Source of the DNA: Candidatus Cloacimonas sp.
GTDB taxonomy: Bacteria; Cloacimonadota; Cloacimonadia; Cloacimonadales; Cloacimonadaceae
DNA: 36,023 nt
Reading direction: 5' to 3'
NCBI GenBank assembly: GCA_039680785.1
Contig: JBDKSF010000009.1
Location: forward strand, 1-36,023
The notes under the pieces are model-generated. The model was not told the DNA's origin. It worked only from the letters and a program-made list of their open reading frames with translations, and made no database searches. Position 1 is the first letter of the stretch. Each line of letters starts with the position of its first letter. Positions 9,051 to 15,164 of the stretch are shown here, one piece after another. A program made the translations under genes and the position numbers.

Positions 9051-9080
9051 CTAATTTTAGTTTCATCAGGAATGATACAT

Positions 9081-9240
9081 ACTAACGACAGGTTTTAACC
9101 CGTTGCAAAATAGGATAAATAATAAGTCCCAGCGGGACGACAGGTACTAACGACGGGTTTTAACCCGTTGCAAAGTAGGATAAATATTAAGTCCCAGCGG
9201 GACGACAGGTATTAACGACGGGTTTTTAACCCGGCGCAAA
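9081..9240. repeat. 65-bp tandem repeat with two hairpins per unit, 2.5 copies
   Basis: Units start at 9081, 9146 and 9211 (period 65), the third truncated. Each unit holds ACGGGTT-TT-AACCCGT (first arm changed in copy 1) and GTCCC-AGC-GGGAC, both able to form short hairpins, separated by TGCAAARTAGGATAAAT. The regular spacing is repeat-like, but there are too few copies and no cas genes, so this is not a CRISPR array. Confidence 0.85.
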
Positions 9241-9244
9241 ATAA

Positions 9245-9486: not shown

Positions 9487-9593
9487 TGATAACTCGGTTG
9501 TCAGCATTTATCCTCTGTATTTACACAATTGTGATGTATTCTATGGATAGCAAAATAAGGCAGAAGTAAAAAAATACAAAGAAAAAAAAGAAG

Positions 9594-9622
9594 TTGACAC
9601 TAAATAGAGAGTAATAATGAAT
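9594..9622 (+). promoter_or_regulatory. Candidate promoter of the R-M operon
   Basis: TTGACA at 9594-9599 is followed by 17 bases and ATGAAT, which would start transcription near 9629. That fits the ATG at 9659 as start of the methyltransferase and argues against the ATG at 9617, which would lie inside the promoter. Confidence 0.45.
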
Positions 9623-9658
9623 AGTCCTAAATTTATTGTGTGGAGCGTTAGCTACATT

Positions 9659-11605
9659 ATGAGTCAGGAAACCTTATTATCTCTGAAACAAGCTGCCTCA
9701 GAGTTAAATGTATCAGAAGCTACAATCCGTAATTGGATTAAACTGGAACTTATTACACCGTTTAATATGAGAAAGAATATAATTGCCAAAAATGAAGTTA
9801 TCAGAATAAGAAATCAAATATTGAATGGTGACATTAGTAAATTAAGATCAAGAGCAAATAAGCTTAGCAGTTCTAATTCTTTTGTCCCAAATGAATATAT
9901 TTCCACTCAGCTTGGCGATATTTTAATTAAAATCAATGCTATTTGCCAAAAAGCGGAACTATCTATTAGTGATGCAATGTTTTATTCTACTCTGCTGATT
10001 CTTTTGCATCAGCAGGAAGTTACTATTATAAAATGTAGTAAACCACATACAACTAAGTTTTGTTTTAGAAGAAAGAATGTTGAACTTATTATGTTAGAAT
10101 GGGAAAAGGAATTATCTGAAAACTATAATGAAATTATCACTAAACAATTGCTTGAAGGTGTTTGTTTTAATATAGACAGCTGTAAAGTTGACTTACTTGG
10201 GGCATTATATCAGGTTATTATGAAAGAAGGTAATAAATCATCAAAAGGGTCTTATTTTACCCCTGCCTTCATTATTGATGATATAATTTCCCGATATTAC
10301 AAAGAAAATGATAAAATTCTTGATCCTTGTTGTGGCTCAGGTCAATTTCTACTGAGGTTTGCCAAGCAAAGTAAGTGCTCTTACGAAAATTTATTTGGCA
10401 TAGACATTGATAAAATTTGCGTTAGAATAGCAGCTATCAATCTTTTACTCTGGTATAATAACGCAGATTTCACTCCGCATATATATCATCTCAATACTCT
10501 TCAAGATATTGACCCGAATTCATTCTTTGATGAACATAGTTTCTTATATGATACTTTTGATATTGTAGCTACTAATCCTCCTTGGGGTTCTGTTATAGAT
10601 AGATACAGATATAAGAATAAATTCCCTCAGATATCTTCAGGTGAATCATTCTCTTACTTTCTTGTTATGTCGCACCTTTTTGCTAAGCACAAAGGTATTG
10701 TTTCCTTTGTGCTGCCTGAATCCATACTTAACATTCATATACATAAAGATATAAGAAAATACATCTTAGAACATTTTAATATTATTCAAATTACTGACTT
10801 AGGAAAAGTATTTACTGGTGTCTTTACCAAAGTATATCGTCTTGACCTGAAGAAAGAAACTCCTTTTCCTGAGCATTTGGTTCAAATTCAAAGAGACAAT
10901 AATATTTTTAGCCAAAATCAATCGGTTTATTTCGCTAATTCAGATTATATATTTAATCTCCAATATCAAGAAGATGTTTCAGATATTATTAACAAAGTGT
11001 ATGCTAAAAATCACTTAACTCTTAAAAACAACGCAGATTGGGCATTAGGAATTGTTACCGGTAATAATGATAAATATATTAGCAAAGAATGCAAAGCCGG
11101 ATATGAAGAAATTTATCGTGGCAAAGATGTATTTCCTCTCTTTTTGGATAAAGCAAATGAATATATCCTATTCCAACCAGAAATATTTCAGCAAGTTGCT
11201 CCTGAATGGAAATATCGTGCCAAGGAAAAGCTTGTCTACAGGTTTATATCTAATCAACTAATCTTCGCTTATGATAATAGACAAGTGCTTACATTAAACA
11301 GTGCAAATATTTGTATTCCTAAGTTTTCTGGTATTTTAATGCAGACCATTGCAGTAATATTCAACACCCAAATATATAATTTTTTGTTTTCTTTCCTTTG
11401 TAACACTCATAAAGTGTTAAGGTCAGACCTGGAAAAATTACCAATCCCTCTAGATTTTCTGAAAACTAACGCTGAGATTCACGATATAACAAGAGCAATA
11501 TTCGCGGGAAATAGTTCTTTGGAAAGTATGGATAGTTATCTTTTCCGTTATCTTGAAATTACGGAAGAACAGCAGCAAAAAATACATAATTACAGGAGAA
11601 AATAA
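9659..11605 (+). CDS. HTH-fused N6-adenine DNA methyltransferase of a type II R-M system
   Basis: About 648 residues from the chosen ATG. Residues 7-34 form a MerR/excisionase-like helix-turn-helix (LSLKQAASELNVSEATIRNW). The catalytic domain has motif X GSYFTP at 197-202, the SAM-binding motif I DPCCGSGQF at 222-230, GIDID next, and the catalytic motif IV NPPW at 306-309, which marks amino-methylation of adenine. The last 200 residues resemble the TaqI/Eco57I-type target-recognition region (TGNNDKYI, YRGKDVFPLF). The start at 9659 has GGAG 13 bases upstream and fits the TTGACA box at 9594; a longer start at 9617 exists. The next gene overlaps by one base (TAATG), as is usual for a methylase-endonuclease pair. 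The gene is AT-rich with many AGA and ATA codons relative to its neighbours, suggesting transfer. The target sequence is unknown. Confidence 0.85.
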   Translation: MSQETLLSLKQAASELNVSEATIRNWIKLELITPFNMRKNIIAKNEVIRIRNQILNGDISKLRSRANKLSSSNSFVPNEYISTQLGDILIKINAICQKAELSISDAMFYSTLLILLHQQEVTIIKCSKPHTTKFCFRRKNVELIMLEWEKELSENYNEIITKQLLEGVCFNIDSCKVDLLGALYQVIMKEGNKSSKGSYFTPAFIIDDIISRYYKENDKILDPCCGSGQFLLRFAKQSKCSYENLFGIDIDKICVRIAAINLLLWYNNADFTPHIYHLNTLQDIDPNSFFDEHSFLYDTFDIVATNPPWGSVIDRYRYKNKFPQISSGESFSYFLVMSHLFAKHKGIVSFVLPESILNIHIHKDIRKYILEHFNIIQITDLGKVFTGVFTKVYRLDLKKETPFPEHLVQIQRDNNIFSQNQSVYFANSDYIFNLQYQEDVSDIINKVYAKNHLTLKNNADWALGIVTGNNDKYISKECKAGYEEIYRGKDVFPLFLDKANEYILFQPEIFQQVAPEWKYRAKEKLVYRFISNQLIFAYDNRQVLTLNSANICIPKFSGILMQTIAVIFNTQIYNFLFSFLCNTHKVLRSDLEKLPIPLDFLKTNAEIHDITRAIFAGNSSLESMDSYLFRYLEITEEQQQKIHNYRRK

Positions 11606-12360
11606 TGGAACAACTTGAACAATTTTTGAAGGAACAAATATCATTTCTTAGCGATAAAGAACATAATGAGCTGGTTGGTAGGTTAGCTAATTTGATATCT
11701 GCGTATCCCTTTAATCAATATGAATTTATAATTTCCACTCTTTTAGGATTAGATAAACTTACTACTGAAGATTACTATGCTTTAAGAGATGACTATATAG
11801 GAAGAAATATGTTTTTATACCTATATGAAATCAGTGCTCCAAGAGGATTTGGTGAGACATGGGGTCAAAGCCATCTTAAGGAGTTAGTTCCGCAATTAGA
11901 AAAACCTTCTAAAAAAAAGGACCCTAATTATTCAGGAGAATATGATTTTCTTTTAGACGATATAGTTAAGATTGAAGTGAAAGCATCTCGGGCAGTAGAT
12001 TTTAATAGTGATGAACCTCTATACATAAAGGCATTATCCTCAAATTCGCGTAAGCGTTTTGATATGAATTTTCAACAGATAAAACCCTATTGCTGTGATG
12101 TATTTGTCTGGATTGCAGTTTGGCGTGATCTGATTAGGTATTGGGTTCTATCTTCTAAAGAGGTCTTTAGTGATAAAAACTATTCTACTGGGCAACATAG
12201 AGGAAATCACAATGAAGGACAACTTCATATTAACGAAAGAAATATAAAACAATATAACAAGTATTTATCATCTCCCGATAAATTATTGAAAGCGTTAAGA
12301 AATGCATATAAGCGACAGATAGGTATTATGGGTAAAAAACGCAATCCCTCAAGAATATAG
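11605..12360 (+). CDS. Restriction endonuclease, PD-(D/E)xK type, partner of the upstream methyltransferase
   Basis: A 251-residue protein that I do not recognise as a named enzyme. A PD-(D/E)xK-like core is visible: the acidic segment GEYDFLLDD at residues 111-119 followed by the hydrophobic strand IVKIEVKAS at 120-128 gives D114 (or D118/D119), E124 and K126. The region after it (FVWIAVWRDLIRYWVLS) continues as a beta strand, and GQHRGNHNEGQLHI near 195-208 may be a recognition or scaffold element. AGGAG lies just before the ATG, which overlaps the methyltransferase stop as TAATG, so translation is probably coupled. The position and size fit a type II endonuclease whose sites are protected by the upstream methylase. 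Activity and specificity are inferred only from context and the motif. Confidence 0.72.
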   Translation: MEQLEQFLKEQISFLSDKEHNELVGRLANLISAYPFNQYEFIISTLLGLDKLTTEDYYALRDDYIGRNMFLYLYEISAPRGFGETWGQSHLKELVPQLEKPSKKKDPNYSGEYDFLLDDIVKIEVKASRAVDFNSDEPLYIKALSSNSRKRFDMNFQQIKPYCCDVFVWIAVWRDLIRYWVLSSKEVFSDKNYSTGQHRGNHNEGQLHINERNIKQYNKYLSSPDKLLKALRNAYKRQIGIMGKKRNPSRI

Positions 12361-12448
12361 ATTATAGTGTCCAAAGAAAAATAATTCACTTTATTTAGCA
12401 ATGTGTTAGCTAAAAATATGCGAAAGTTGAACTAAAATTGTTTTAGCA

Positions 12449-12519
12449 GTGAGGAGAAAATTTTTACACCAAAAACACCGTAAAACCGATAATACCAAAC
12501 AAGATGGGAGCACTCAGGA
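12449..12519. repeat. Right flank repeat of the R-M cassette (decayed copy of 8923-8997)
   Basis: CAGTGAGGAG, TTTTTACACC, CAAAAACACCGTAAAACCG, AATACCAAACAAG and TGGGAGCACTCAG occur in the same order and spacing as the blocks at 8923-8997, with point changes and small indels. The two copies are about 3.5 kb apart and bracket the R-M genes. Confidence 0.6.
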
Positions 12520-12575
12520 TTGCTTTTAGAAACAAGGATTTTTAAGATTTTCCAGAGAGAGGCGAATATAAACAG

Positions 12576-12633
12576 GTCATAAGATATCAATTAACTTACT
12601 ATAAATAAGTCATAAGATATCAATTAACTTACT
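12576..12633. repeat. 25-bp perfect direct repeat
   Basis: GTCATAAGATATCAATTAAC followed by TTACT occurs at 12576-12600 and again at 12609-12633 with an 8-base spacer (ATAAATAA). It lies just past the 3' end of the minus-strand peptidase gene and 215 bases past the endonuclease stop. Nothing else is visible in 12361-12652. Confidence 0.92.
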
Positions 12634-12652: not shown

Positions 12653-13489
12653 TCAATGTATCTTGATTATTTTGGTAATTACTTTTTCCTTGCCTGAGGT
12701 TACTTTAACAAAATAAACTCCGGAGCCAGTGATTTTTCCTGCATTATCTTTTCCGTTCCAGATAAATTGCAGGTCTTTATGAGGATAGCCATTAAATACG
12801 CTTTGCACGATTTGTCCTTTCAGATTGTAGATTTTAACATCCATCAATTTGCTCGGATCAGCATTTTCTACAGTTAATGTCGTTTCATTCACGAAGGGAT
12901 TAGGATAATTGGGAAGTACCTTTAGTCCTATATTAGGAGGGGGAATATCGGGTTTGGTTGTTTCCTGGAAAAGGTTAGCAAACACATATTTAATTAAATT
13001 TGTAGCCGACTCAGCTTGCATATTGTAAAGTGGAAAACTTAAACATACTGTTTGACCTTCTGCATAGTTGTGATGAATACCTACACTTTTCCCATTTAAG
13101 GAACCCTGATTGCTATCAGAACCATAATCGGAGCCATACTGATAAATACTTTCCTCAGGATTCACCGGTTCCAATCCTTCCACACCAAAGATATGACCAT
13201 TCCAAGTGGACAATGTTTTTAAACTATCAACTTGGAGAGCCGGATAATTTTCATCATTGGGAATTGCATATTTAAAGCGTGCTTGTCCACTATAATTTAC
13301 ACCCCCGATTCCCAAAACTTCATAAATAAAACTATCTGCAGAAAATAATGCTGGATAGCCAGCATTCATTTCAAATGCCTTACCCGGATAATAGACAGTA
13401 ATAAATAAATTACCTCCCAACCGGATATATTGTTCTAAAGCATCACGAATCTCGTAGGGATATGTGTTATCACTCATATCATTGCCATG
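12653..13489 (-). pseudogene. C-terminal part of the M28 peptidase, cut off by an in-frame amber codon
   Basis: This segment is in the same frame as the upstream peptidase piece and is separated from it only by TAG at 13492-13490, followed at once by the codons HGND and then ATG at 13477. It continues a partly started domain (YPYEIRDALEQYIRLGGNLFI, a Rossmann-like, amidotransferase-like pattern). It ends with a FlgD-like secretion or sorting domain: PNYPNPFVNETTL, then VKIYNLKGQIV, WNGKDNAGKITGSGVYFVKV and a basic terminus. No ribosome-binding site is evident before ATG 13477 and there is no signal peptide, so independent expression would give a non-exported product. The likely ancestral codon is TGG, giving SILWHGND. 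It could also be a sequencing error or a strain-specific mutation. Confidence 0.75.
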
Positions 13490-15139
13490 CTACAAAATAG
13501 AAGAATAAATACCAATATCTGCCATTTTCAAGATACTGGTTTGTTCTTCCAAATCCAAATGGGAGACATTTTCAAAGTTCTCCAATAGATCATTGTAAAA
13601 ATCATCAACTGCTTCATCAGTCGGTTGAAAAGGAGATGTTCCGCTAAAATTTTTGCTTTCGTCTATCACATAAATACCTCTGTCCATTGAAATTATCCTA
13701 CTTGCCAAAGGAGCGGAAAATTGACTTTGATTTCCCTCTAAATCATTGGCAGTAATGCTATAGTAATAATATTCCTCATTACTTTCCACATTCGCATCAA
13801 TATAAGCAGTATCAGAGAAAGAAACAGTTGCAATCAGTGTTTTTGTTCCGTTTAAGCCGAGAGAGCGATAGATACTATAACTGACAATATCCAGTTCCGG
13901 ATTAGGCAGCCATTTGATAGTTATAGAGGTTGTATCCGGAAAATCAGCAATTAAATTGGGTGTGGTTGGAACCGAAAAAGGAATTCCACTTGCAAATTTT
14001 CGCATACTTACAAAGCCAGAATCATTTACCGCACAAACAGCTATGTTATAATATAGTCCTTCTTCAAGCCCACTAATAGAACACTGGTTAGCATTCACAT
14101 ATTGCCAGAAAGTTAGAGAATCAATTTCTGTTCCGTAATATACCGCGTATTTAGTAACTTCCGGATCGGAGGAAATATCCCATTCAGCCAATAAGGAGTT
14201 TCCTGTTCCAGGATCATAGACCTTTAAATTTTCCACCAATATTGGCTGATTGGCAAAAACAGCAACGGTTGCAGTGGCTGCTTTAACTATTTCAGCTTCA
14301 TACTGAAAATCCAGATAATCAATTAAATCCTCGTTGCTATGATAATAGGAACTGATATATCGTTCAAAGAAAAATACGGCATTAAATCCGTTTCTTGAAA
14401 AAATAGAGCTATCAGAGCCCATACCTGTAACTCCCAAAACCGGTTGATAGGAACTATATAATTCTGCTATTCTCATCGTTTCATAACTATATTCCTCACA
14501 ACCTAAATATGGCATAACCCGAAACTCTTGACTAACCTCCAAATTATTAGCTACCATATCCAGGTTTATCATCACTCTGATATTTTGGTTTTCAGCGATA
14601 GCATAATCGCAATATGTTTCCGATCCCCAGGCGGAACCTTCTTCTGCACTAAAGGCAATAAAACGAATTGAACATTTTGGTTGATATCCTGTAGCCATCA
14701 TCACTCTGGCAATTTCCAATACCCCAGCTGTACCACTGGCATTATCATCTGCACCGGGAGCAAAAGTAAAAAAATCAGAATTAAAGGAAATTGAATCATA
14801 ATGCCCTCCTACAATGATATAAATATCAGGATATAAGTATCCTGGAATAGTGGCAATTACATTATATTGAGTAGTATTATTATGTGGATATTCCTGCATC
14901 CAAGTATTGGTAAAGCCATAACTTTCAAATTTTCCCTTAATCCAATTTGCCACCTCTAAATGATTATCAGCCAAAGCATAACGCTTTTGATAATTCTGCA
15001 GGTGTTGAACATACGCTTTCAAAGTATCAGCATTCACCATAGATATCATATTTATAATATCTGGTTTCGGATCTGCAAACTGAGCGGACAGAAAACTGAT
15101 TGCAATTAAAAAAGCCAATAGAAAGCAGGTCTTTTTCAT
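13490..15139 (-). CDS. Secreted M28 family zinc peptidase with two Fn3 domains (prematurely terminated)
   Basis: From the ATG at 15139, which has AGGAG six bases upstream, the protein starts with a clear signal peptide (MKKTCFLLAFLIAISFLSAQ). The M28 domain keeps all metal ligands: H113 and D115 in GGHYD, D131 in PGADDN, E166/E167 in SAEEGS, D194 in NLDMV and H267 in YYHSNED. It is therefore likely an active aminopeptidase. Two fibronectin type III-like domains follow (about 320-400 and 405-490), then the beginning of a Rossmann-like domain. The frame ends at a TAG that interrupts that domain, so this piece lacks the C-terminal sorting domain found after the stop. Whole-gene length would be about 828 residues. 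An alternative longer start at 15160 adds seven residues before the signal peptide and lacks a good ribosome-binding site. Confidence 0.85.
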   Translation of the reverse strand: MKKTCFLLAFLIAISFLSAQFADPKPDIINMISMVNADTLKAYVQHLQNYQKRYALADNHLEVANWIKGKFESYGFTNTWMQEYPHNNTTQYNVIATIPGYLYPDIYIIVGGHYDSISFNSDFFTFAPGADDNASGTAGVLEIARVMMATGYQPKCSIRFIAFSAEEGSAWGSETYCDYAIAENQNIRVMINLDMVANNLEVSQEFRVMPYLGCEEYSYETMRIAELYSSYQPVLGVTGMGSDSSIFSRNGFNAVFFFERYISSYYHSNEDLIDYLDFQYEAEIVKAATATVAVFANQPILVENLKVYDPGTGNSLLAEWDISSDPEVTKYAVYYGTEIDSLTFWQYVNANQCSISGLEEGLYYNIAVCAVNDSGFVSMRKFASGIPFSVPTTPNLIADFPDTTSITIKWLPNPELDIVSYSIYRSLGLNGTKTLIATVSFSDTAYIDANVESNEEYYYYSITANDLEGNQSQFSAPLASRIISMDRGIYVIDESKNFSGTSPFQPTDEAVDDFYNDLLENFENVSHLDLEEQTSILKMADIGIYSSIL

Positions 15140-15164
15140 TGTTTCTCCTATAAAGTCCATTTAC

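Follow-up and report, generated by a model that had tools for sequence, protein, structure and literature searches.

Among DNA methyltransferases (MTases), those of the SsoII/Ecl18kI type are known to carry an N-terminal helix-turn-helix (HTH) and to repress their own gene; these are cytosine-5 enzymes, and in Ecl18kI the modification (M) and restriction (R) genes are divergent (PMC3874152). A regulatory HTH can also be fused to a restriction–modification (R-M) enzyme in the C-REase fusions (NsoJS138I and PvuII relatives), where it is the endonuclease that bears the C protein (PMC3850674). Here, we analyzed a window of 36,023 nucleotides from Candidatus Cloacimonas sp. (contig JBDKSF010000009.1), which holds a locus that resembles M.SsoII and M.Ecl18kI (PMC3874152; PMC3978073, PMC3695355) in that an N-terminal HTH is found on a Type II modification enzyme. 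However, it differs from them in that the enzyme is an adenine MTase, the HTH is winged, and M and R form a tandem operon. It also departs from the C-REase fusions, since it is the MTase that bears the HTH, which does not belong to the Cro/C1 type, and from C proteins proper, which are separate, small, and of the Cro/C1 type, whereas this HTH is fused and of the winged Xis/RacA type. For an adenine MTase bearing a MerR-type HTH, no relevant report was found in the open-access literature. The two enzymes strongly match the PADLOC families REase_II (PDLC03414, 2e-68) and MTase_II (PDLC03348, 3e-96), of which the locus is a diverged member; with an MTase gene adjacent to a separate restriction endonuclease (REase) gene, it is a real but ordinary Type II R-M system, and its family is already catalogued. 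Its features are the following, in window positions:

9505–12612, no strand: inserted cassette (left edge about 9505, right edge within 12361–12612, from the comparison with G001 and L001)
9505–9658, plus strand: 5′ non-coding leader of the cassette, including a TTGACA block at 9594–9599 (76% identity to L001 over 161 columns)
9659–11605, plus strand: gamma-class N6-adenine DNA methyltransferase P0001, 648 aa (Pfam, PADLOC, AF2, PDB folds)
9674–9823, plus strand: winged HTH of the Xis/RacA/MerR superfamily, residues 6–55 (PDB profile hits, AF2 secondary structure, core conservation in 12 homologues)
9713–9742, plus strand: recognition helix SxATxRNWxK, residues 19–28 (A21, T22, N25, and W26 invariant in 41/41 aligned MTases)
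9839–9862, plus strand: KLxxRANK motif, residues 61–68 (N67 invariant; L62, R65, A66, and K68 at least 90% conserved)
10247–10264, plus strand: MTase motif X region, GSYFTP, residues 197–202 (G197, Y199, and T201 invariant)
10322–10351, plus strand: MTase motif I, DPCCGSGQFL (D222, P223, C225, and G226 invariant)
10574–10585, plus strand: MTase motif IV, NPPW (N306, P307, P308, and W309 invariant)
11108–11446, plus strand: TaqI_C-type target recognition domain, residues 484–596 (Pfam TaqI_C, 1.6e-16)
11594–11599, plus strand: AGGAGA, likely ribosome-binding site of the REase gene (from the sequence)
11603–11607, plus strand: TAATG, overlap of MTase stop and REase start (from the sequence)
11605–12360, plus strand: Type II restriction endonuclease P0002, 251 aa, PD-(D/E)XK (PADLOC, AF2, Foldseek)
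11944–11982, plus strand: catalytic core D114 ... E124-V-K126 (conservation across 70 homologues)

The edges of the cassette are given by a sister genome (G001), whose valS is 95% identical to that of the window and in which valS and a peptidase gene lie about 1.7 kb apart, without R-M genes between them: homology between the window and G001 breaks off at about 9504 and is picked up again at 12613. L001 is another locus, and an occupied one, whose match to the window sets in at this left edge as well. Compared with G001, the cassette looks like a recent and compact insertion, placed between valS and the peptidase gene, with no visible integrase of its own, because only the two R-M genes lie between the edges. 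Within the phylum, the MTase is patchily distributed, being present in 5 of 125 genomes (E 1e-60 or better).

The surroundings of the cassette show further peculiarities. At its right edge, a 33-base direct repeat occurs twice (12567–12633) and might be connected with the insertion. To its left, a 65-base tandem repeat of 2.5 copies occupies intergenic DNA (9080–9243), and sequence related to it is present at the empty site of G001. The peptidase-like gene is split on the minus strand within 12653–15160 (ORFs 12653–13477 and 13490–15160), through either a frameshift or an assembly error, its G001 counterpart being a single open frame of 835 aa.

The first gene product, P0001, has the motif order X, I, IV followed by a C-terminal target recognition domain, the NPPW motif, and the N6_Mtase and TaqI_C domains of a gamma-class N6-adenine MTase. 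Its Pfam matches (N6_Mtase 9e-25, Eco57I 7.5e-16, TaqI_C 1.6e-16) all stand well above cut-off, in line with its assignment to PADLOC MTase_II, and its AF2 model (pLDDT 89) finds CamA, M.BseCI, and M.TaqI as top PDB folds, although these closest structural matches share just ~15–18% identity with it. The MTase of L001 is 77% identical. We place the start codon at 9659, because in L001 the equivalent ATG is preceded, at a distance of two codons, by an in-frame TAA; this stop rules out an upstream in-frame ATG at 9617, which would have given a protein of 662 aa.

The earlier note on this DNA had described a compact R-M cassette in which an N6-adenine methylase with motifs X, I, and IV and a TaqI-like recognition region is coupled by TAATG to a small second gene with a D...ExK core, and here Pfam, PADLOC, the conserved motifs, the M–R arrangement, and the overlap at 11603–11607 all agree with it. 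Its remark that no endonuclease could be recognized for the second gene is not borne out, as P0002 matches PADLOC REase_II at 2.2e-68 over profile positions 35–243 of 244. Among 70 sequences, D114 never varies and conservation reaches at least 90% at E124 and K126; in the AF2 model (pLDDT 90), this D...ExK core lies on a mixed sheet, as in PD-(D/E)XK endonucleases. A non-nuclease fold, which had been named as grounds for abandoning the R-M reading, is not what the model shows: in Foldseek, the only PDB matches with E <0.001 are chains of NhoI (6e-4); the homing nuclease I-Ssp6803I comes next, and PvuII and EcoRV match weakly. These PD-(D/E)XK nucleases resemble the model by fold but share only 8–16% identity with P0002 at low TM-scores, so that what they support is the fold class rather than any particular nearest relative. 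By sequence, the REase profile retrieved from the PDB nothing but chance Ras matches. At least 104 relatives of P0002, from many phyla, were found among 137 candidate stretches (one genome per species), and none in plasmids, phages, or viral contigs.

The arrangement of the two genes is a property of the family. In all 76 assessable relatives, M comes directly before R on one strand, and in 75 of them the gap, taken from the aligned start, is about −77 to +25 bases. The MTase ahead of the REase belongs to one of two classes, being either gamma-class and P0001-like or an unrelated beta-class enzyme of ~340 aa (N6_N4_Mtase, with M.RsrI as the closest solved structure by sequence), and since the tight M-then-R order is seen in 75/76 relatives with either partner class, it is general and independent of the HTH. 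The beta/gamma label changes twice on the REase tree; the M.RsrI-like partner occurs in about half of the REase loci (L002–L008, L011–L020, and others).

Turning to the N-terminus of P0001, HTH_17 is matched at 3e-4, under its Pfam cut-off. A profile built from 12 homologous N-termini nonetheless retrieves from the PDB the winged HTHs of phage Gp37 (2.9e-6) and RacA (3.3e-5), the AF2 secondary structure (strand–helix–helix–wing–helix) is that of a winged HTH of the Xis/RacA/MerR superfamily, and the homologue L021 passes the HTH_17 cut-off (1e-10). The HTH is genuine on the strength of this profile match and of L021, and the MerR/excisionase-like fusion proposed earlier stands. Confidence in this segment of the model is moderate (pLDDT ~70–78, and <50 at residues 60–67), and the docking of the HTH is not visible in it. 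L021 also covers positions 2–718 of the 727 in PDLC03348; the catalogue model hence already takes in the HTH, and the fusion, though genuine, is implicit in it.

Among the relatives, we distinguished three N-terminal forms: the winged HTH, a bare helix near the start codon, and a Cro/C1 domain (HTH_26, E ~1e-16) placed ahead of the bare helix, the last only in Clostridia and related Firmicutes (L036, L043, L044, L048, L055, L058, L064, and L068). With few exceptions, all three keep SxATxRNWxK and RANK. In an alignment of 41 MTases from many phyla, comprising 12 with the winged HTH (the window, L001, L021, L030, L035, L038, L039, L056, and L086–L089) and 29 of short or Cro type without a wing, helix 2 and RANK are fixed, whereas helix 1, the wing, and helix 3 vary or are missing; A21, T22, N25, and W26, on the face of the recognition helix, are identical in every protein, including those without helix 1 and wing. 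With hhalign, the long N-termini match the short ones (9e-15) through both the RNW and the RANK block, the wing region appearing as a deletion, which shows that these blocks are homologous between the two. The twelve winged proteins maintain a hydrophobic core at positions 18, 23, 27, 32, 47, 50, and 54, and mostly at 16 and 42, residues 23 and 27 being always hydrophobic, as an HTH core needs. In the short and Cro forms, by contrast, residues 23 and 27 vary and are often polar (at 27: E10 N5 D4 K4), and residue 29 is an invariant Leu; the helix therefore seems to pack differently there, yet its conserved face is retained without the HTH fold.

Taken together, these observations make it likely, in our view, that the locus is an acquired Type II R-M cassette of ~3 kb in which the N-terminal helix and RANK are core to the MTase and the HTH scaffold is optional. 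On this account, the cassette arrived horizontally; its first gene encodes a CamA/BseCI/TaqI-like N6-adenine MTase predicted to shield host sites, and its second, translationally overlapping gene a PD-(D/E)XK endonuclease predicted to cleave unprotected DNA. Both enzymes would share one recognition site, and the M-first order and the overlap would jointly set their relative dose. During methylation, the SxATxRNWxK helix and RANK would most likely touch DNA or the MTase body, the scaffold surrounding the helix being dispensable. Because its most conserved part persists in relatives without the remaining domain, the HTH is probably part of the enzyme, not a timer, and we read the N-terminal helix mainly as a DNA-engaging element of the MTase; its fixed residues could instead be structural, and a dual role in methylation and operator binding, by analogy with M.SsoII, is possible.

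How the helix came to be shared by proteins with and without an HTH is a more tentative matter. The REase family is accompanied by beta-class MTases and by gamma-class ones with a winged HTH, a bare helix, or a Cro fusion. On the REase tree, the winged form is scattered over deep branches, and the bare and Cro forms mostly cluster together in a single well-supported group (21 rows), with L010 and L063 outside. Loss of the wing followed by gain of the Cro domain would fit this distribution, the root of the tree not being fixed. We might accordingly picture, without leaning toward it, a recognition helix of a winged HTH that turned obligatory for DNA handling by the MTase and outlived its HTH, with a Cro/C1 regulatory domain added later in Clostridia.

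The winged HTH may alternatively make the MTase an autorepressor, which would bind an operator over its own promoter and lower both M and R after establishment, as in M.SsoII/M.Ecl18kI. Self-repression by MTases with an N-terminal HTH is an established class (PMC3874152), which made the autorepression idea of the earlier note a reasonable one; the winged HTH is real and of the Xis/RacA type, an N-terminal HTH on the MTase is what self-repressors of the SsoII type have, and ~150 bp of 5′ DNA moves with the cassette. However, the promoter proposed at 9594–9622 was not recovered by a consensus scan, only its TTGACA block being conserved with L001, and promoter-like sites in the region are at chance level (18 vs. 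17.9 in shuffles). The 161-column alignment of the window and L001 leaders likewise revealed no common dyad, a weak test since it involves one close relative only. Moreover, an operator reader would be expected to co-evolve with its site, unlike this helix face, which does not vary from phylum to phylum and persists in proteins that lack the HTH. Because the two genes form a single, overlapping operon, a self-repressing MTase acting at the M promoter would bring down M and R together, and this cannot alone delay R relative to M. The suggestion that the fused HTH gives C-protein-like timing is not supported, in view of this point, of the leader results, and of the family-wide fixity of the helix face, which extends to the 29 wingless proteins. 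All in all, we regard autorepression by the window MTase as unlikely. The Cro/C1-fused relatives are better candidates for controller–MTase fusions: in four of six tested, an ATATC-N10-GATAT dyad lies just upstream of the likely −35, a suggestive lead given that its score was equalled in 3 of 40 shuffles, and one that also speaks for the autorepressor reading.

That the HTH is a leftover domain with no present function, kept only because MTase folding needs the helix and RANK, would agree with the variability or deletion of helix 1, wing, and helix 3 next to a fixed helix 2 and RANK; we find it doubtful, as the hydrophobic core kept in the twelve winged proteins implies a fold that is still maintained. 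Finally, a decayed or inactive R-M system is very improbable, both ORFs being intact, full length relative to their relatives, and equipped with all catalytic residues, while in its favor there is nothing direct, only the seemingly split neighboring peptidase gene.

From the earlier reading, the architecture (cassette, HTH, and nuclease-like gene) is thus retained; the lack of a match for the endonuclease is not upheld, and the timing role is not supported. What stays of most interest is that the conserved recognition helix outlasts its HTH, and the fusion of an HTH to an MTase is by itself no evidence of a controller. The locus adds a clean R-M insertion with a known empty site for a Cloacimonadota-type genome. 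It also belongs to a natural series in which a winged HTH, a bare helix, a Cro fusion, and a beta-class MTase all occur with one endonuclease family, and which lets one ask what sets R-M dosage and by which routes DNA-binding modules are swapped.
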